Shown piece after piece: positions 1 to 11,709 of a stretch of 47,244 bases of DNA (its first letter is position 1; each line of letters starts with the position of its first letter). Both the position numbers and the translations under genes were made by a program. The stretch is taken from positions 1 to 47,244 of the forward strand of contig JAIRQF010000183.1 in NCBI GenBank assembly GCA_031256635.1, written 5' to 3'. This stretch comes from Treponema sp. Its GTDB lineage: Bacteria > Spirochaetota > Spirochaetia > Treponematales > Breznakiellaceae. The notes below the pieces were generated by a model. The model did no database searches. It worked only from the letters and a program-made list of their open reading frames with translations, and was not told the origin of the DNA.

Positions 1-71
1 TTTAGTTCCGTGAAGGTATGCCCTTCATCTCTATAGGCGACTGCGCACCGAATAAAATCTATACTATACAT
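1..71 (-). CDS. IS630-type transposase, N-terminal fragment cut by window edge
   Basis: An ATG at 71-69 opens a frame that runs leftward off the window. The 23 visible residues begin MYSIDF and continue to RDEGHTFTEL. This resembles the first helix-turn-helix of IS630-family transposases, whose N-termini commonly read like 'YSIDFR..V..Y..EGHTF.EL'. Only this short piece can be judged, so catalytic DDE residues are out of view and intactness is unknown. No clear Shine-Dalgarno site lies upstream and I could not identify a terminal inverted repeat in 72-106. It marks the left border region as mobile-element territory. Confidence 0.5.
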   Translation of the reverse strand, partial: MYSIDFIRCAVAYRDEGHTFTEL

Positions 72-106
72 ACTTTATTTATCGGTTTTTCTTCCAAATA
101 CTTAAA

Positions 107-559
107 TTAATTCACTATATTTAGGTAATTATTATTTTTATCTATTATAGAATAAGTTATAAATAATGTAACTGTTATTAAAGAAATAATTTTACCAAAT
201 TTTATTATTTCAATAAAATATTCATTTATAGAGTATTTAAAATCACAATTAAATATTTCCATTTCTTTTGATATATATTTTTCATTATTTTTTTCTTCTT
301 TAGTAAATTCTTTATTTAATTTTTCTAATGCCTTAGAAATATCAAGCTCCATTCTTGCAATTATTTCTTTTGACCTTTGACTAAAATAATTAAAAATGAA
401 GAAACAACTAATTGAAACTATAATATTGAAAATAAATAATAATTTTAAAAAGTAAATATTTAATATATTTATTACTAAATATATTAAAAATAAAACATTA
501 ATTATAAATATTCCAATGCAACAGATATAAAATATTCTAGATAATTCAAGATTTTTCAT
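107..559 (-). CDS. Small membrane protein, unknown function
   Basis: I prefer the ATG at 559-557 (MKNLELS) because AGAGG sits 7 nt upstream; the frame extends seven codons further to 580 but that start has no such site. The 150-residue product has three likely membrane segments: about residues 8-30, 36-57 and 125-143. A charged Lys/Glu-rich stretch (about 64-105), possibly a short coiled coil, lies between the second and third. I recognise no family. The gene is very AT-rich, like the operon to its right, and is separated from it by about 240 bp with two hairpin repeats. It could be an accessory gene of the island. Confidence 0.55.
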   Translation of the reverse strand: MKNLELSRIFYICCIGIFIINVLFLIYLVINILNIYFLKLLFIFNIIVSISCFFIFNYFSQRSKEIIARMELDISKALEKLNKEFTKEEKNNEKYISKEMEIFNCDFKYSINEYFIEIIKFGKIISLITVTLFITYSIIDKNNNYLNIVN

Positions 560-590
560 AATATACCTCTTTAAATACAATAATTGTTAG

Positions 591-623
591 CATTTTCCAA
601 AACTTAGTTAGTTTCGGAAAATG
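591..623. repeat. Hairpin repeat, AAACT/AGTTT family, copy 1
   Basis: The outer arms CATTTTCC (591-598) and GGAAAATG (616-623) are perfectly complementary. Inside them AAAACT pairs with AGTTT around a five-base loop, with one A/C mismatch between the two stems. The inner arm is shared with the copies at 23891-23920 and 23968-24007, while the outer arm differs in sequence but still pairs. Confidence 0.6.
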
Positions 624-671
624 TTTCTGAAAAAACGCCTAAATGCCGGTTTTTCTACTAAATTTATGGTT

Positions 672-702
672 GCTTTTCAAAAAACAGAAGTTTTGGAAAA
701 GC
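672..702. repeat. Hairpin repeat, related copy 2
   Basis: GCTTTTC (672-678) pairs with GAAAAGC (696-702). After one mismatch, AAAA pairs with TTTT around a short loop. It sits 50 bp from copy 1, and the sequence between them (around 636-656, 'CCTAAATGCCGG' then a T run) resembles the spacer between the hairpins at 23920-23968. Confidence 0.5.
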
Positions 703-801
703 CTCTTGCAATTATATATATATTGATCTATACATCAGAAGCTAGACATAAATAATTTTTATATGTATGATTTTTCATACATATTACCCAATTTCGCTTA
801 A

Positions 802-1038
802 CTAATTAAACGCGATATTATTTGTTTTTATCAAAGATACATTAAGTTTCGAATCATAATTTTCATCACTTCGTTCAAACATCCAACTACCATTCATATT
901 AGCTCTAATTTTACTCAACGCCATTTGATAAATATGCCATTTTAAATGACCTTCATAAAAAGCTTCGTGAATAATTTCTTCTGACGCTATTAAATCTTCT
1001 TCTCCTGCATATCTTGATTTATTTTTATTCCATTTCAT
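802..1038 (-). CDS. Hypothetical 78-residue protein, last gene of the ATPase/FlhA-like operon
   Basis: The start ATG (1038-1036) overlaps the TGA stop of the phosphatase gene as ATGA, so translation is probably coupled. The product is soluble and charged, with a Lys/Asn-rich start, an acidic helix (about residues 12-30, 'GEEDLIASEEIIHEAF') and a Trp-containing middle. I recognise no domain. Its position at the end of a tightly packed operon suggests it works with the upstream phosphatase or membrane protein, but nothing in the sequence says how. Confidence 0.5.
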   Translation of the reverse strand: MKWNKNKSRYAGEEDLIASEEIIHEAFYEGHLKWHIYQMALSKIRANMNGSWMFERSDENYDSKLNVSLIKTNNIAFN

Positions 1039-1724
1039 AAATTAAATTTTCCACTTAACTTATTTCTCAGCAATTCAACTTCTTCCGCAGACAATCCTAA
1101 TTTACATCTAAGGTAAGTTTCAGCGATATGCTGTAGATTTTGTTCGTTTATAATTTGCGAGTTACTCATTGCAGATAAAATTTGCATTACAGTCGCCTCA
1201 TCGGCTTTTTTTGCGTCATAAATACTTGATTCAAAAATGCTGTTAAACGATTTAAGATAATCATTAATAACATCATCTAATGACGCTCCCATAAAAGATT
1301 CAATAACCATACAAACAAAACCTGTTCTGTCCACTCCTGCATGACAATGGATTAAATATGATCTTTCTCTATGAATAATAAATTGTAAAGTTTTTTTTAA
1401 TTTTTTATTAAAACTGACGCTTGTACAATTAAAATCCATACCAAGCGCAATAACTCGTCCGCTTCTAAAGAGGCTGCTATACCAGGGAGCAATCACTGAT
1501 TTTCCGGTAATTCCTGATATTGTATCACATAGATTGATTACTGTTTTAATTTGTACTTTAGAAACCAACAGAGAAATAGTCTTTTCCTGTTTATTGTCTT
1601 TTATTGGATGACTGCTTCGGTATAATGTATTTGGAGCAATGCTTCCCATACAAACTTCACGAAAATTCACAGTATGAGCGCTAAAAAACGCGATTTCTTT
1701 ATTTTTCATTATAATTTTTCCCAT
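1035..1724 (-). CDS. Cys-based tyrosine phosphatase (Y_phosphatase3-like)
   Basis: The protein carries the phosphatase P-loop HCHAGVDRTG, matching HCxxGxxR(T/S), near residue 127. The Cys would be the nucleophile and the Arg would bind phosphate. The N-terminal 'APNTLYRSSHP' and 'INLCDT' segments are typical of bacterial tyrosine phosphatases of the Y_phosphatase3 family, which can act on phosphotyrosine or phosphoinositides. There is no signal peptide, so it should be cytoplasmic. Two starts are possible: ATG at 1724 (MGKIIM) or ATG at 1709, the latter fused to the upstream stop as TAATG with GGGA about 10 nt before it. I slightly favour 1709. The gene overlaps both neighbours in the operon. 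Its substrate is unknown; the adjacent membrane protein or ATPase are candidates by context only. Confidence 0.8.
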   Translation of the reverse strand: MGKIIMKNKEIAFFSAHTVNFREVCMGSIAPNTLYRSSHPIKDNKQEKTISLLVSKVQIKTVINLCDTISGITGKSVIAPWYSSLFRSGRVIALGMDFNCTSVSFNKKLKKTLQFIIHRERSYLIHCHAGVDRTGFVCMVIESFMGASLDDVINDYLKSFNSIFESSIYDAKKADEATVMQILSAMSNSQIINEQNLQHIAETYLRCKLGLSAEEVELLRNKLSGKFNL

Positions 1725-2833
1725 GTTCCATTATACTTTTCATATCTGCCTTCGATATTTGAAATACTTATCTTATTATCTGAAATAAAATATTTCCCTC
1801 TTACTGTTTCAACGAATATTTGCCAAAAAAATATTCCTTTTGCATGAGTTGATGTTAAAGTAAAACAATTGTCTTCTAATTCTATTTTACCCTTTCCATA
1901 ACGGTATCCATTTAGAAAACTTATATAAGTACCACTTTTTATTCTAAGTTCAAAATCATTACATTTCCATTTTCCATCAAAAGTTCCGTTTGTGTTTTTA
2001 GTTTCAATTATTGGCAAAGCCGAACGTGTAACACTAATGCTAACTGCCAATGAAATTATAAATATTGGAAGAAAAAATACAACACCGCTTCCAATAGAAA
2101 TATATAAATAAAATTTTAATGCTTCTAAAAATACTGCTTCATGAAGTAGATAATCTATTATTATTCCGCCCAGAATTATATAAATTATAAAGAATAAAGC
2201 AAATTTAGTATTTCCTGATATAAATTTCATTACAGCATTTAATGAACAATAAAAATTAGATTCTTTTTGAATCTCCTGTTTTCTTAATTGAGCTTGTCCT
2301 TCGGTTATTTCATCCGCGCTATATTCAACTTCAATTGCCATCATTTTAACTTGCATACTATCAAGTTTAAATCTTGCCGCCACTTTAGTTAAACGCGTTC
2401 CTCCCTTTGTGACAATTATAATCATTAATAAAAGAATTATTATTAACAAAATAAAACCTGACCATAAACTTGCGGTTTCGCCTGTACCGGCAATTAAGTA
2501 TGATATAAAACGAATTATCCTCCCATTATACTCAGAACCGTTTGACAAAATAGTCTTTATAATTGATATATTAATTACAGGTGTGAATGCTGTCGAAACC
2601 AATAATGCGGTTGGAAATAAAGAAAAGTCTGTCATTCTCTTTGTGTTTAAAACTATTAATAAAATCAATACGGCAAATAAAATATTTAATCCTGTGAATA
2701 TATCCAATATTATTACAGGAAACGGTATAACAATAAATAAAACTATTAAAAATATTGCAAACCCAAGGAATGATGTTGTAAGCTTGCTAAAAATTTCTTT
2801 AATTTTTTTTATAAATACTCTCCTTATTACCAT
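1709..2833 (-). CDS. FlhA/SctV-like export-gate membrane domain fused to a small beta-rich domain
   Basis: Residues 20-275 follow the membrane half of FlhA/SctV, the type III export gate, along their length. Landmarks are 'IPFPVIILDIFTGLNI' (36-51), 'FSLFPTALLVST' (70-81), the FHIPEP loop with 'VTKGG', 'VAARFKLDSM' and 'KQEIQKESNFY' (141-195), and 'GSGVVFFLP' then 'SVTRS' (248-271). Canonical FlhA then has about 350 residues of cytoplasmic domain. Here there are only about 90 residues (282-374) of alternating beta-like character with NGTFDGKW at the start and NGTWEKL at the end, like the small lipocalin-like modules common in Treponema proteins. No other flagellar or type III gene is nearby. 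Start: ATG 2833 lacks a Shine-Dalgarno site, while AAGGAG lies inside the frame just before Ile8 (ATA), so the true start is uncertain. The upstream AAA+ gene ends 30 nt away and the downstream phosphatase overlaps. Confidence 0.75.
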   Translation of the reverse strand: MVIRRVFIKKIKEIFSKLTTSFLGFAIFLIVLFIVIPFPVIILDIFTGLNILFAVLILLIVLNTKRMTDFSLFPTALLVSTAFTPVINISIIKTILSNGSEYNGRIIRFISYLIAGTGETASLWSGFILLIIILLLMIIIVTKGGTRLTKVAARFKLDSMQVKMMAIEVEYSADEITEGQAQLRKQEIQKESNFYCSLNAVMKFISGNTKFALFFIIYIILGGIIIDYLLHEAVFLEALKFYLYISIGSGVVFFLPIFIISLAVSISVTRSALPIIETKNTNGTFDGKWKCNDFELRIKSGTYISFLNGYRYGKGKIELEDNCFTLTSTHAKGIFFWQIFVETVRGKYFISDNKISISNIEGRYEKYNGTWEKL

Positions 2834-2863
2834 GTTGGATATTTATAAGATTTACTCATTAAA

Positions 2864-4576
2864 CTACGTCCCAAATCCAATTTTTTTATTGGCATTAAAT
2901 CTATTAAAAATTTCATCTTTGCAATACTGTGTCAGGTTATCTGTTAAGAGTTCTTCGCCGCTAAGTATCGCGTCAACTTCAACTTTTCGCGCGATGTTTT
3001 CAATCTGACCGCCTGAAATTTCAAATTCTTTAGCAAGTTTAATAACACCATCATCAGAAAGTTGCGGCAGCATTGTATGCCAGATATTCTTACGGCTTTC
3101 CATGCAAGGTTTTTCAAAAGTAATTTTAAATAAAAACCTCCGCTCATAAGCTTTATCCATATTCTGAATCAAGTTAGATGTTGCGATTAGTATACCGGAA
3201 AGATTTTCAATTTCCTGTAAGATAATATTTTGTATGGTATTTTCTGTCTGATCAATTGTACCATTACCGCTGCCGATTTCATGTCTTTTACCGATTATAG
3301 CATCGGCTTCATTTATTAATAAGATAGGAACTATCTTTGATAATTCCACAAGTCTGCGATAAGTATTAAAAATTCCTTTTATTATCTTTTCGCTTCCTCC
3401 ATACCACATACATTTTGTGTCTGAAATATCAACAAATAAAATATCACGTTTTGTTTCCAGGGCAATTTGATATACCGTTTCAGTTTTTCCCGTTCCAGGA
3501 CCGCCTGAAAACAAACATGCAAGACCTTTTCGCATCCCTTTATCATTTAATCTTTTAATAATTTGGCTGTTATTTTCTTCCTGTAAAAGGGACGTTAATT
3601 TTTGTATTTCGCCTGTTTCCCTTGAATTATAATACATCAGCTTTTTATTAATGTTTTTATATCTAATAATATTTCTATTATTTATAATGTCATCATTTAA
3701 TTCGCTGAATAAATCTTTTTTGGCATTGTCCGTTAGTTTCCAGGTATCTTGCTTTGCGAATCCGTTATCATTGGCATATTCAACCAGTTTCATTTCCATT
3801 AAAATATGTTTCCCGCCAATTAATGCGTCTTGCAATTCCATATAATCAAGAAGACTATCATACATAAATTCTAATTGATAAAACATAATATCATCATATT
3901 GTTTATTTCTGAATAAATGACAGAAACACAAAAGTATTATTAAGTTATCATCGTCAAGATCATAATTCTTGATTTTTTGGCAGAATAAAAGGTGCATATT
4001 ATGATTAATAATATCCAGAATTTCCAGTTTCATGGATTCATATGTATATTCTTCATCTTCTCTTTCTTTAAATACTCGTTTAATATAAGTAAAAAATTTA
4101 TAGATTGAAAAATTGTTTATTTTTTTATGTTTTAACTCCTCATTTAATAAAAGTGATTCTTGAAAATTACTAGGAATACGAAATGATATACCATCTGTAC
4201 TGCGTTTACATCTGATTATCTTCATTCTTTCCAATGTTTCAAATTCTTTTATATACTTTAATATTTTTACTCTGCTGCAACGCAGTGATTCAGCAATTTC
4301 ATTAATTTTATTATATTCATCACTATCTTTATTCAATAAATGAGAGAAGATAACTGCCTGCAAAGGACTTATATGCAGTTTTTTGGCAATAAAATCGAAA
4401 TGAATTTTTCCTTTTGCTATACATTTTTCAATTCCGTATTTTCTAGAAACAGAAAGTATTTTCTCAATGTGATCTAAAATATCCATTTCTTTAACTGCAA
4501 AGCTGTTAAACAAACCGGCTGCATCTGAGGATAATTTTTCTTTGCTGCCTTTTAATAATAATTTCATGCTAACCAT
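2864..4576 (-). CDS. AAA+ ATPase with N-terminal winged-helix-like region
   Basis: The C-terminal third is a classical AAA module: Walker A GGPGTGKT (358-365), Walker B ILLINEAD (418-425), sensor 1 'ATSN' (465-468), two candidate arginine fingers R479-R480 ('YERRF'), and a sensor 2-like 'SGGQIENIAR' (521-530). This is the CDC48/FtsH-like AAA type, not the F1-like FliI ATPase of flagellar export. The first 150 residues look like a winged helix, with 'INEIAESLRCSRVKILKYIKEFETL' spanning about 91-115. The middle (150-350) is helical and unassigned. It is the first gene of the leftward operon; a possible promoter lies at 4622-4650. A chaperone, remodeller or DNA-linked regulator are all possible. 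No transmembrane segment is seen, so it should be cytoplasmic. Confidence 0.75.
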   Translation of the reverse strand: MVSMKLLLKGSKEKLSSDAAGLFNSFAVKEMDILDHIEKILSVSRKYGIEKCIAKGKIHFDFIAKKLHISPLQAVIFSHLLNKDSDEYNKINEIAESLRCSRVKILKYIKEFETLERMKIIRCKRSTDGISFRIPSNFQESLLLNEELKHKKINNFSIYKFFTYIKRVFKEREDEEYTYESMKLEILDIINHNMHLLFCQKIKNYDLDDDNLIILLCFCHLFRNKQYDDIMFYQLEFMYDSLLDYMELQDALIGGKHILMEMKLVEYANDNGFAKQDTWKLTDNAKKDLFSELNDDIINNRNIIRYKNINKKLMYYNSRETGEIQKLTSLLQEENNSQIIKRLNDKGMRKGLACLFSGGPGTGKTETVYQIALETKRDILFVDISDTKCMWYGGSEKIIKGIFNTYRRLVELSKIVPILLINEADAIIGKRHEIGSGNGTIDQTENTIQNIILQEIENLSGILIATSNLIQNMDKAYERRFLFKITFEKPCMESRKNIWHTMLPQLSDDGVIKLAKEFEISGGQIENIARKVEVDAILSGEELLTDNLTQYCKDEIFNRFNANKKIGFGT

Positions 4577-4919
4577 AACTTATATCAGATTGGTCTATCA
4601 CTGGATGCTAGAGCGAAATATATTTTAACGACCAAGCCAGTCTGAGCCAAGTTCAACCTCTATTTCTGCCATATTTTAAAAAATATGTTTTAAATATTAA
4701 GTATGATCATTGTAAACTTTGCAAGGAAGACAAGTAATGGCAATTGTTTTAAGATTTGTTCGGATTCATCTGGTTTACCTTGCTTGCCTAATTAAAAACC
4801 TTTACAGTAAAAGCGGCTTTTCCTTTGTATAAAAATTGTATAATTTACCGAATTCTGTTTATATTATTTAAAAACATACAAAAACATTTTGAAAAAATAG
4901 GTTTTATAACAGAAATTAA
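4577..4919. other. Non-coding gap, 343 bp
   Basis: An AT-rich stretch between the AAA+ gene and the broken DUF1016 gene. Apart from a candidate leftward promoter at 4622-4650 I see no open frame with a ribosome site, no repeat and no RNA gene. Confidence 0.5.
4622..4650 (-). promoter_or_regulatory. Candidate sigma70-type promoter for the AAA+/FlhA-like operon
   Basis: On the minus strand TTGGCT (4650-4645) is followed after 17 nt by TAAAAT (4627-4622), about 46 nt before the AAA+ start codon. Five of six bases match at -10 and three at -35. It is a spacing-based guess in AT-rich DNA. Confidence 0.35.
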
Positions 4920-5954
4920 TTATTTTTTATCACTAAACTGGACTTTTAAAATCTCTTTTTGCCGTTCAATTTCTGCAATAAGTTCATCTTCAGTGGGCAG
5001 ATAAGGCATATATTTTGCTGCGAACAACTGCTGGCTTTCATTTAGGACAGAGTATCTTGCAATGGTTTTATCGGTTTCAGTACATAATAAAATGCCAATG
5101 GTAGGATTGTCCCCCTCCCGTTTTTTTAGATCATCAAACATTCTGACATACATATCAAGCTGTCCGATGTCTTGATGAGTGATTTTTTTTGTTTTTATCT
5201 CTATGAGCACAAAGCACTTCAGAATGTAATTATAAAAAACCAGATCGATGTAGAATTCCGCTGTATCGGTTTATATATGCTGCTGACGGGAAACAAAGGC
5301 AAAGCCTTTTCCTAATTCAAGAAGGAAATGTTGAATGTGATCTATGATAGCTTTTTCAAGTTCTTCCTCGATATAGCCGGAATTTGCAGGTAGTCCAAGA
5401 AATTCAAGAACAGCCGGATTTTTTATAAATTCCAGTTTATCCAGTTGAAGTCCCGCAGTTTTCTCTTCCATTTCTGATACGACAGGCTCTTTTATCTGGG
5501 AAGATAAAAGCCGCTGATAATAAAGAGTGGAAATATTTCTGTCCAGAGTTCTTACAGACCAATTATTGGCGGCAGCTTCGGTTAGGTAATAATTTATGGC
5601 GTTTTTATCTGAAAGGCGCATAATAAGCTTAAAATGAGACCATGATAGATTTGGCATACAGTGTGTGCCAAATTCGATATCCTTAAAAGTCAAATAAAAT
5701 TGCCTGAAATTTCGTAAATTCCGTTCGCCAAAACCCTCTCCAAACTCGTTTTTAAGCTCTTCAGAAAGCGTTTTTATTATTTCCTGACCGTATTCCGCTC
5801 TTTGTTTGCCCTGTTGTTCTTCTTCGATGATTCGTTTACCTATCAGCCAATAGGCTTCTACCATTACGGTATTAATCGCTGTATATGCTCTTTTTCTGGC
5901 AGAGATGATTATTTGTTTTATGTCGGTGATGTATTGATTTTTTATTATTGACAA
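4920..5954 (-). pseudogene. DUF1016 (YhcG-type) PD-(D/E)xK nuclease gene with an in-frame stop
   Basis: Two stretches that look like separate genes are one reading frame interrupted by a single TAA at 5273-5271. The N-terminal part (227 residues, TTG start at 5954 with AAGGAG 6-7 nt upstream) is the helical DUF1016_N domain ('AYWLIGKRIIEEEQQG', 'NLRNFRQFY', 'LSWSHF'). Directly after the stop the same frame continues TDTAEFYIDLVFYN and then IEIKTK, the PD-(D/E)xK active site with Asp in 'YID' and Glu/Lys in 'EIK'. It goes on to 'HQDIGQLDMYVR' and the usual C-terminus. A sense codon, probably Lys or Tyr, would normally stand at the stop. Without readthrough the nuclease core is lost. Family members are linked to phage defence and recombination. 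An internal GTG at 5210 could only make a fragment lacking the first Asp. Confidence 0.8.
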
Positions 5955-6186
5955 TGATTACTCCTTATTATTTATCTAGGTACTCGAAATCAAGCTTATT
6001 AGAATATAAAAGATATTTACCAAGTTTAACATATAGTCATAGATGAGACAATTATCGATAAATAGTCTTAATAAAATATTTAATGTAATTCCAACTTAAT
6101 ATCACTCAATCTCAATAAATTTGCATAAAATACCTATACCTCAGGTTGTCGGAACATCTTACATTTTGAAAACAAAATCAATTTGT

Positions 6187-9723: not shown

Positions 9724-9750
9724 GAAACTAACCGAGTTTTGCAAGCGGCA
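9724..9750 (+). repeat. Partial copy of the AAACT/AGTTT repeat
   Basis: The right half matches the repeat at 23968-24007: AAACT-aaccg-AGTTTTG, then AAGCGGC, with one difference. The left outer arm is missing or decayed, so only the inner stem can form. Confidence 0.5.
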
Positions 9751-9840
9751 AATTTATAACTATTCCCTGTTCAACAATCCTGACTCCTGACTATCCTCTC
9801 CTTACTTCACACACTTTTCTCTATATGATAATGTAACGGC

Positions 9841-11709
9841 ATGAATCAAATATCAGCAGATGAACTCCGCAGTAAATATATTCATTTTTTTATTTCTAAA
9901 GGGCATGCGCAAATACAGGGTAAATCCCTGCTGCCGGAAAATGATCCGACTGTCCTATTTACAACAGCAGGGATGCATCCGCTGGTTCCATATCTGCTGG
10001 GGGAAGAACACCCGGCGGGAAAAAGGCTTGTGGATTTTCAGAAATGTATCCGGACAGGCGATATTGACAGCGTAGGCGACGCAAGTCATCTTACGTTTTT
10101 TGAAATGCTCGGCAACTGGTCTTTGGGGGATTATTTCAAGGAAGAAGCGATAAAAATGAGCTTTGAATTTATGACTTCTGCGCAATGGTTGAATATCCCG
10201 TTAGAAAAGTTGGGAGTAACCGTTTTTGAAGGCGAAGGGGACATTCCAAAAGATGATGAATCCGCGGCCGTTTGGAAAAGTTTAGGAATTAAGCGCATTT
10301 CATATCTGCCCAGGGAAGACAACTGGTGGGGCCCCGCAGGCGCCACAGGCCCTTGCGGTCCTGATACAGAAATGTTTTATTACACCGGGGACGCTCCTTG
10401 CAGTCCTGACTGCAAACCGGGATGTTCCTGCGGTAAATGGCTTGAGTTCTGGAATGATGTTTTTATGCAGTACAATAAAAACGCAAACGGCGCTTACGAG
10501 CCATTAACGCGAAAATGCGTTGATACAGGTATGGGTATAGAAAGAACCATTACTGTCCTGAATAGAAAGTCCAGCGTTTACGATACTGTAATTTTTTCAG
10601 AAATTATTAGTGCGATTGAACAATCCTTCGGCTGCAAATATTCCGGGGAGCAAAAATCAGAAAGTGTTGATACCGATAAATCCATACGAATAATCGCCGA
10701 TCATGTTAGATCGGCGGTTTTTATACTCGGCGACCCAAAAGCGGTCAGTCCTTCCAATGTGGGAGCCGGCTATGTGTTAAGGCGGCTGATCAGGCGGGCT
10801 GTGCGCCACGGCCGCAAGCTGTTATCAAAAGGGCAGCAAAAAACAGATGAAAACAACGAGTTCGGCCGATCCACGCAAATTAGGCTGTCTTCAATCGCGG
10901 ATGTGGTAATCCGTCAATTTAAGGGCCCTTACCCTGAATTGGAAGATAAAAGCGTCTTTATTAAAAACGAACTTGACAAGGAAGAGGCAAAATTCATGGA
11001 AACCCTGCAAAAAGGCGAACATGAATTTGAGAAACTCCTTCCCAATTTACTAAAAGACCCGCGAAGAATCATGTCCGGGCGTCTTGCCTTCAAACTTTAC
11101 GATACATACGGCTTTCCCATAGAATTGACAGAAGAACTTGCTTCAGAATCCGGAATGACGGTAAACAGGGAAGAATTTGACGAGGCTTTCAGAAAACATC
11201 AGGAGTTGTCTCGTTCGCAAAGCGGACAGGCTTTTAAGGGAGGACTAGGCGATCAGGGAGAAATGGCCGTTAAATACCACACCGCAACCCACCTGCTTCA
11301 CCAGGCTCTGCGGCTGACTTTGGGTGAACATGTGGCGCAAAAAGGCAGTAATATTACGGCGGAGCGGCTGCGTTTTGATTTCGTTCACGATACGCCGATG
11401 ACTTCCGGTCAAATCAAGGCTGTGGAAGATATCGTAAATGAACAGATAAAAAAGGATATTCCGGTTTCCATGGAAACGATGAATCTTGAAGAGGCAAAAA
11501 AGAGCGGGGCAATCGCTCTTTTCGGAGAAAAATACGAAACAACCGTTAAGGTTTACACCATCGGCAATTCACAGCATGATTATTTTGCCAAAGAAGTCTG
11601 CGGCGGCCCTCATGTGGAACATACCGGAGTCCTGGGAAAATTTGTTATACAGAAAGAGCAGTCTTCTTCCGCCGGAGTAAGACGTATCAGGGCAGTATTG
11701 GAACAGTAA
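9841..11709 (+). CDS. alaS: Alanyl-tRNA synthetase, compact form
   Basis: This enzyme charges tRNA-Ala in the cytoplasm. The N-terminal class II catalytic core is clear: 'FTTAGMHPLVPYLLG' (40-54), 'FQKCIRTGDID' (66-76), 'TFFEMLGNWS' (85-94), a Cys-rich insert (187-197), and 'LEFWNDVFMQY' (201-211). The tRNA-binding region 'GAGYVLRRLIRRAVRHG' covers 308-324. The editing-site zinc ligands are present: HTATH (480-484) and CGGPH (587-591). At 622 residues it is much shorter than the usual 860-880. It lacks the beta-barrel that normally precedes HxxxH and the whole C-Ala domain. I recall that Treponema AlaRS is similarly short. The start ATG has only a weak ribosome site. It is followed 55 nt later by the parvulin-like gene. 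Confidence 0.97.
   Translation: MNQISADELRSKYIHFFISKGHAQIQGKSLLPENDPTVLFTTAGMHPLVPYLLGEEHPAGKRLVDFQKCIRTGDIDSVGDASHLTFFEMLGNWSLGDYFKEEAIKMSFEFMTSAQWLNIPLEKLGVTVFEGEGDIPKDDESAAVWKSLGIKRISYLPREDNWWGPAGATGPCGPDTEMFYYTGDAPCSPDCKPGCSCGKWLEFWNDVFMQYNKNANGAYEPLTRKCVDTGMGIERTITVLNRKSSVYDTVIFSEIISAIEQSFGCKYSGEQKSESVDTDKSIRIIADHVRSAVFILGDPKAVSPSNVGAGYVLRRLIRRAVRHGRKLLSKGQQKTDENNEFGRSTQIRLSSIADVVIRQFKGPYPELEDKSVFIKNELDKEEAKFMETLQKGEHEFEKLLPNLLKDPRRIMSGRLAFKLYDTYGFPIELTEELASESGMTVNREEFDEAFRKHQELSRSQSGQAFKGGLGDQGEMAVKYHTATHLLHQALRLTLGEHVAQKGSNITAERLRFDFVHDTPMTSGQIKAVEDIVNEQIKKDIPVSMETMNLEEAKKSGAIALFGEKYETTVKVYTIGNSQHDYFAKEVCGGPHVEHTGVLGKFVIQKEQSSSAGVRRIRAVLEQ

Follow-up and report, generated by a model that had tools for sequence, protein, structure and literature searches.

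At the core of type III systems, both flagellar and virulence-related, is FlhA, which uses the proton motive force (PMF) and has been regarded as an indivisible component. A cryo-electron microscopy preprint (PMC13308203) describes a nonameric FlhA basket in which a core of transmembrane helices TM2-6 is flanked by TM1 of one neighbouring subunit and TM7-8 of the other; in its section 6, TM7-8 pack on the neighbouring subunit. Passages of that preprint and of PMC8179193 report that the FlhA substitution D208A increases proton leak. In Zorya, ZorA and ZorB are related to MotA and MotB, according to passages of PMC11890865. Here we describe a gene for the membrane part of FlhA alone, found in a 47,244-nucleotide stretch of Treponema sp. 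DNA (the window; contig JAIRQF010000183.1 of GenBank assembly GCA_031256635.1), together with its relatives in the order Treponematales and beyond. We tentatively propose that such gate-only FlhA proteins are a membrane component of undescribed WYL-regulated, nuclease-linked operons of a defence type that are assembled from export-machine fragments in Spirochaetota.

The window is one contig (C99) of a draft host genome of 2.48 Mb in 189 contigs. Its gate-only gene (1709-2833, minus strand) is a real open reading frame (ORF) with an ATG start and an unbroken frame of 374 codons for amino acids. Residues 30-272 of the product match PF00771 (FHIPEP; E = 4.6e-61) over profile positions 1-239 of 657. 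A profile of the gate also matches solved FlhA and SctV-type chains in the PDB. The scores against the NCBIfam equivalogs fall below the cut-offs both for FlhA (205 bits, cut-off 772) and for SctV (161 bits over profile positions 9-250 of 677, cut-off 692). Thus, the profile search that the initial annotation had suggested did return an FlhA/SctV match, and the assignment to an FlhA-type fold rests on sequence. That annotation had described the membrane half of the gate as recognizable end to end; this proved wrong, as the match stops after TM6 and TM7-8 are missing. Its statement that the cytoplasmic ring domain is lacking held up, with no FlhA cytoplasmic domain found in the window protein and the PF00771 match ending at profile position 239. 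The annotation also called the gene an orphan. No flagellar or type III secretion gene was identified with Pfam among the seven other ORFs at 1-7.6 kb of the window, but the host genome encodes a full-length FlhA on contig C18 (771.6 bits, profile positions 1-655).

The FlhA-like membrane part, comprising TM1-TM6 and the FHIPEP loop, occupies residues 1-272 (2018-2833, minus strand), as delimited by the profile match, the alignment and an AlphaFold model. The cytoplasmic FHIPEP loop (approximately residues 144-205; 2219-2404, minus strand) is the best-conserved region, with 60% identity to the host's FlhA, compared to 39-47% in the TM segments. AlphaFold, run with an alignment of ten gate-only sequences, placed helices at residues 2-35, 40-63, 73-98, 105-115, 119-172, 178-229 and 233-272. 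The mean predicted local distance difference test score (pLDDT) was 63.6 over the chain, with all of residues 273-374 below 50. The helices of residues 2-272 would fit six TMs with a long FHIPEP hairpin, so this part of the structure prediction called for earlier agrees with the assignment; the C-terminal tail gave no confident model.

Most gate-only proteins end at a similar point. In an alignment, 19 of 27 stop at residues 267-282 of Escherichia coli K-12 FlhA, and the last residues of the other 8 are spread by alignment gaps to 290-335. Beyond that point FlhA has a further hydrophobic stretch (287-316 in the host's protein, 285-329 in that of E. coli), which we take as TM7-8. Since most of the family ends before this stretch, the window gene is read from its sequence as keeping TM1 and the core TM2-6 of FlhA and lacking TM7-8 and the ring.

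In total, 29 gate-only genes were examined, 27 of them at loci in the order (including three cut or short copies, L059, L060 and L061) and two outside it. Within the genus, 7 of 39 genomes carry such a gene and all 7 also encode full FlhA (one fragment in genome G035 was not classified). Among the 291 genomes of the order, at least 25 outside the genus have two or more matches; 23 of these were examined and 18 hold gate-only genes, at 20 loci. The two copies from outside the order (L139 in G630 and L140 in G488) came from 13 multi-match genomes that were re-searched after a search of 392 genomes of the phylum. A contig scan with a five-protein gate-only alignment gave ten loci. Treponema bryantii XBD1002 accounts for one and uncultured Treponema assemblies for the remaining nine; five of these loci probably fall in genomes already counted. 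Full-length FlhA is kept in all 25 gate-bearing genomes of the order, as well as in G630 and G488. Set aside or left unclassified were FlhA genes cut by contig ends (G035 contig C37, and G280), a frame-broken copy (G198), a full-length second copy (G064) and fragments (G035 contig C47, G276, G285). Also left out were G176, with two full-length frames, and G036, with a split match.

An artefact of contig ends was rejected as a general explanation, as gate-only genes are internal to their contigs in genomes assembled into just one or two (G084, G159, G069 and G630). Also rejected was a phage or virus origin: searches with the window protein and two alignments found no relatives in viral contigs. 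Ten records of a phage collection had a match, and the one examined (MT835480.1) contains a full-length FlhA-like frame of 688 aa. Matching plasmid records numbered 464; among the 20 listed, 19 are labelled mxiA and one is unlabelled.

A tree of 51 rows, from which L060 was omitted, separates 24 of 26 gate-only proteins by one branch from all 25 FlhA rows, including that of E. coli. L033, L034 and L043 fall in one group with the window copy. These sequences point to a lineage that is mostly apart from FlhA. At L062 (5792-6661), a gate-only copy immediately precedes full flhA and is probably a tandem duplicate without the ring. For two close pairs, L053/L054 and L056/L058, the ratio of nonsynonymous to synonymous substitution rates (dN/dS) calculated by NG86 is 0.37 and 0.32, and more distant pairs (dS >1) give 0.23-0.34. 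Purifying selection is indicated but is not strong.

It is improbable, in our assessment, that gate-only genes are decaying FlhA duplicates carried as functionless passengers in AT-rich islands. Decay would account for their fast divergence, for the short or broken state of some copies (L060, L061, G276), for the tandem arrangement at L062 and for the YN00 estimates of dN/dS, which for the same two close pairs are 0.61 and 0.48 and suggest that selection may be relaxed. The NG86 values for these pairs argue otherwise, as does the similar end point after TM6 in 19 of 27 proteins. Decay also sits poorly with the compact layouts on one strand, in which genes overlap or are separated by short gaps, and with neighbours that recur even outside the order (see below).

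The residues retained set these proteins apart from FlhA. Sites were taken from passages of PMC13308203 and follow E. coli numbering; L062 was omitted from the main counts. All 27 flagellar FlhA rows from the order, that of the host among them, retain N/Q137, D249 and Q254. In the gate-only rows of the order, N137 is kept in 0 of 26, D249 in 0 of 24 and Q254 in 1 of 25. Widely kept in these rows are D/E158 (21/24), R/K94 (22/25), R/K147 (18/25), R/K154 (17/23), D/E199 (17/26) and K203 (15/26). The window copy has M137, S249 and F254. It shares TM1-TM6, the FHIPEP loop, R147, R154, D158 and K203 with FlhA/SctV (PF00771), and differs in lacking TM7-8 and the ring, in the changed relay positions, in its location outside a flagellar operon and in having a normal FlhA alongside. 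Because the relay positions N137, D249 and Q254 are lost, an FlhA-like, PMF-driven proton channel appears unlikely in the treponemal copies. When nine copies were compared with the FlhA of the window's host, conservation was highest in the FHIPEP loop for eight of them, L051 being the exception.

To describe the neighbourhoods, ORFs lying up to 7 kb from the 27 loci in the order were clustered into families. WYL regulators occur within about 7 kb of 17 of the 27 loci, where 0.5 loci would be expected given 86 WYL hits in the 25 host genomes and stretches of 15 kb; the nominal Poisson p of 3e-25 overstates the significance because WYL genes cluster in islands. Two WYL representatives were confirmed with Pfam, and the places of Pfam WYL hits give the same 17 loci. 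An AAA ATPase of the type found in the window is present at 10 of the 27 loci (one as an 86-aa piece), compared to an expectation of about 0.23 that rests on a lower-bound background with a stricter threshold. At E ≤ 1e-25, this AAA family occurs in 87 of the order's 291 genomes. A DEDDh exonuclease is encoded at 8 of the 29 loci, namely 6 of the 27 in the order plus L139 and L140. At L043, L052, L055, L139 and L140 it lies directly beside the gate gene on the same strand, with gaps of 3-85 bp. L139 encodes a WYL regulator, a free FlhA cytoplasmic domain (FlhA_C; profile positions 319-553), the exonuclease and the gate, all on one strand.

Further neighbours, excluding members of the WYL and AAA families, numbered 136, of which 102 were scanned with Pfam. 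Among the 25 of 80 families listed are RNase_T (5), PDDEXK_4 (4), FliG_C (3), ToxN (2), metallophosphoesterase (2) and DUF3990 (1). Neighbours match the PADLOC 2.0.0 models for IetA (weakly), WYL, DEDDh, PDC-S48 and PDC-S26, and such domains also occur outside defence. At none of the 27 loci, that of the window included, did phmmer find FliP, FliQ, FliR or FlhB within 7 kb, and an FlhA ring turned up near only one, L062, where it belongs to the adjacent full flhA. At L140, a free DnaB N-terminal domain (9733-10236) lies next to the exonuclease and the gate-only gene, and DnaB-like fragments recur at L047, L049 and L122 (by BLAST).

The initial annotation had suggested that the gate fold was taken over as a membrane channel or sensor in a different system. 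A different system is supported by the WYL, AAA and nuclease context and by the retention of a normal FlhA; a role as channel or sensor stays conjectural. The missing halves of the export proteins, which are not visible from the window, are carried by relatives in the same kind of locus, in the form of free FlhA and FlhB cytoplasmic domains. In WYL islands we identified free FlhA cytoplasmic domains in L114 (E = 1.3e-69), in L116 (E = 4.8e-71) and at a third place (E = 6.3e-18). The same islands encode a free FliI/EscN-type ATPase (E = 4.6e-66) and free FlhB cytoplasmic domains (E = 3.8e-11 and 1.8e-11), located at L116:3324-4457, L114:16687-17805 and L116:12277-13389. By eye, the ATPase retains a P-loop (GSCTGKST), and the site in the FlhB pieces that corresponds to NPTH, a motif of FlhB, is altered to NGTE or NGQE.

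PF00771 matches restricted to FlhA_C were found in 6 of the 25 gate-bearing genomes and in 1 of 33 others, four of which have weak matches to the membrane part themselves (Fisher p = 0.035, uncorrected for relatedness). In the gate-bearing genomes, 8 of the 12 listed FlhA_C-only places lie within 10 kb of a WYL gene. Other FlhA_C ORFs were seen at L141:8180-9508, L145:8536-9912 and L144:7963-9414; that of L145 is an FlhB_C-FlhA_C fusion according to Pfam and the others look alike on visual inspection. In L141 and L145 the surroundings, judged by eye, include ftsH- and lepA-like genes, and these copies are not in WYL loci. For FliG_C, 81 hits exceeded the cut-off, two rows below it having been dropped before counting. 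A WYL gene is found no more than 10 kb away from 11 of 25 short frames (≤345 aa), compared to 1 of 56 long frames (Fisher p = 4e-6). Short orphan proteins with the FliG C-terminal domain include those at L049:5947-6672, L051:2928-3716 and L060:5371-5730, and others in L114-L118. The host genome of the window has a 156-aa ORF of FliG_C type beside response-regulator-like genes (contig C101; L113:2849-3319). Also seen were small ORFs with a FliM-like 'EID' near the start (L117:8586-8816 and L055:4162-4476), with no Pfam match to FliM.

Two alternatives bear directly on these fragments. The first, which we consider unlikely yet the most serious rival, is that they mimic or interfere with the cell's own flagellum, either as dominant-negatives or as decoys for agents that attack it. 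Gate-only FlhA, the free FlhA and FlhB domains, the FliG C-domains and the FliI-like ATPase would, under WYL control, engage their usual partners and slow down export or rotation. All of the pieces do derive from flagellar export or switch proteins, and all 25 gate-bearing genomes searched in the order keep a full FlhA. Conservation peaks in the FHIPEP cup for 8 of the 9 copies compared, the FlhB pieces lack the NPTH motif and short FliG_C frames are concentrated near WYL genes. Loss of TM7-8, which pack on the neighbouring subunit of FlhA in the section of PMC13308203 cited above, would be expected to disturb a mixed ring. Interference leaves unexplained the recurrent exonuclease, PDDEXK and AAA neighbours, and fragments of DnaB type occur in such loci too. 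In addition, five divergent gate-only proteins are 14-32% identical to FlhA in TM1-4 (as compared with the FlhA of the window's host rather than of their own hosts).

The second alternative is a minimal, split type III-like translocation machine in which the gate, the FlhA/FlhB platform and the FliI-like ATPase are encoded by separate genes and act in trans. The co-occurrence of free FlhA and FlhB domains with a P-loop ATPase of type III secretion type in WYL islands of gate-only genomes would fit such a machine, as would the two FlhA halves on one strand at L139 and the excess of FlhA_C-only matches in gate-bearing genomes. Speaking against it are the lack of FliP, FliQ, FliR and FlhB near the loci, the loss of the proton relay and the window's own genome, in which a PF00771 profile search found no free FlhA cytoplasmic domain. 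We rate this explanation as quite improbable, slightly below decay.

The defence-type operon, our tentative preference, draws on several of these observations together: the WYL regulators at 17 of 27 loci and at L139, the AAA ATPases, the DEDDh exonucleases, the PDDEXK_4 and ToxN neighbours and the matches of neighbours to PADLOC models. Also counted in its favour are loss of the relay with retention of the cup, the separate lineage of 24 of 26 proteins, the NG86 values, the scattered occurrence (in 7 of 39 genomes within the genus) and the families for AAA ATPase, gate and phosphatase that the window shares with L043 and L055. A defence function of gate-only operons is what these sequences lead us to propose. 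A broader version, which we consider possible and somewhat more doubtful, is that spirochaetes dismantled the export apparatus and reused its pieces in WYL-regulated, nuclease-armed immune operons, as a second case after Zorya. The pieces would be the FlhA gate without its ring (and, in treponemes, without the proton relay), free FlhA and FlhB platforms, a FliI-like ATPase and the FliG motor domain.

For the way such an operon might work, we infer docking, a trigger and an effector step. The gate-only protein would form an oligomeric membrane collar, the cytoplasmic cup of which could dock cytosolic partners such as the AAA ATPase, the exonuclease or a free FlhA domain. The collar, lacking the proton relay, would not be driven by the PMF and may act as an anchor or a gated pore. 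The WYL regulator or the ATPase might sense infection or DNA damage, and the effector might be a nuclease or the opening of the pore. Zorya offers the closest analogy, in the reuse of a flagellar membrane component beside cytosolic effector genes. The flagellar part is a different one with no known sequence relation, and ZorAB keeps its ion-transduction residues whereas the gate-only relay is lost. No MotAB was found among the 25 of 80 neighbour families listed, no MotAB model having been run on its own.

Several observations weigh against the defence-type reading. The window locus itself has neither a WYL regulator nor an exonuclease, and its host genome has no WYL at the Pfam level. Ten of the 27 loci lack WYL within 7 kb (some are on short contigs), L036, L037 and L038 sit among other kinds of genes, and the clustering of WYL genes in islands makes the enrichment look more significant than it is. 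Of 30 AAA loci taken with flanks of about 1.5 kb, 3 show a gate. None of the PADLOC 2.0.0 models is matched by the window gate or by four other gate-only proteins. Loss of the relay is not universal, as L140 keeps R85 and N137 and L139 has E249. In the tree, L035 and L062 fall with FlhA (support 96/84). The YN00 estimates suggest that selection may be relaxed, and the Zorya-like mechanism is an analogy.

Gate-only FlhA, or FlhA in defence loci, appeared in none of the literature matches listed (titles and abstract starts, open-licence PMC text). By the sequence features given, the gate-only protein departs from defining features of FlhA/SctV, its neighbouring AAA ATPase falls below the IetA cut-off and the gate has no PADLOC match.

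In the window, the genes for the AAA ATPase, the gate and a phosphatase lie in this order on the minus strand. The AAA ATPase (2864-4576; 570 aa) is separated from the gate by 30 bp and has weak N-terminal helix-turn-helix matches and a Walker A motif (GGPGTGKT). The phosphatase, of Y_phosphatase3 type (1035-1724; E = 1.5e-18), contains a CX5R motif (HCHAGVDR) and its gene overlaps that of the gate by 16 bp. These three families also occur together in L043 and L055, there with an exonuclease and WYL. The window AAA ATPase is weakly IetA-like, with 71 bits in PADLOC and 71.9 bits against the NCBIfam model. IetAS, the system of IetA, resembles the locus in this PADLOC score; it differs in that the AAA ATPase is far under the NCBIfam cut-off of 510 and in that Pfam showed no protease family in the adjacent window ORFs that were scanned. 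The operon lies in an AT-rich block (1-6000) with a guanine plus cytosine (GC) content of 0.294, compared to 0.423 for positions 9841-47244. Because the block is AT-rich and adjoins DUF1016/YhcG and D5-type primase genes, it appears to be an island at the contig end; its other flank lies off the contig. The DUF1016/YhcG-type nuclease gene is present as two ORFs of one family (4920-5954) and looks broken.

The window copy is unusual in its C-terminal tail (residues 281-374; 1712-1993, minus strand). The initial annotation regarded this beta-rich tail as having been swapped for the ring domain. Loss of TM7-8 and the ring is general in the family, so that a swap is not a general feature and the tail is something that this gene alone has gained: judged by ORF length, all 28 other gate-only genes examined lack it, their products ending after TM6. 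Thus, no second case of the fusion was seen among the gate-only genes examined in spirochaete genomes, although these relatives have recurrent neighbours. Beta strands are predicted in the tail at very low confidence and its fold was not established (mean pLDDT of 40.7 when modelled alone). A PDB search with the tail gave only two matches, at E of about 0.5, with no relative of note. Its homologues, from 145 genomes searched in the family, are small treponemal 'LEGTW...' lipoprotein-like proteins in four other genomes (L094-L097). The last 94 residues of the window protein are 42% identical to L094 (E = 1.3e-18), and L041 is an additional weak match. In L094-L097 the domain follows a hydrophobic N-terminus with a cysteine in a lipobox-like setting (by eye; L096 is cut by its contig), whereas in the window it follows TM6. 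If the topology is as in FlhA, the tail would be cytosolic and might be a ligand-binding add-on, although its relatives look secreted.

It is very improbable that the tail arose as an assembly chimera on what is really a standard gate-only gene. The fusion is known from one genome only, and the host assembly is a draft. Nevertheless, the join is in frame and at a domain boundary, the halves of the gene are alike in GC (0.279 and 0.267), the stop of the gate gene overlaps the start of the next gene by 16 bp and the homology of the tail extends to 1-2 residues from its end.

Gate-only proteins form a widespread family that is reduced to TM1-6 and the FHIPEP cup and lies outside export clusters, and they offer a natural experiment on what the membrane ring does by itself. 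The question is testable in a named strain, Treponema bryantii XBD1002, of a cultured rumen species. From an identical protein we infer that genome G155 is this strain; on one 240-kb contig it has two gate-only genes together with free domains of FlhA, FlhB and FliI type. If these operons are defensive, the export gate would be, alongside the stator, another piece of the flagellum co-opted for immunity. If the fragments are instead flagellar inhibitors, they would reveal a regulated brake on spirochaete motility.

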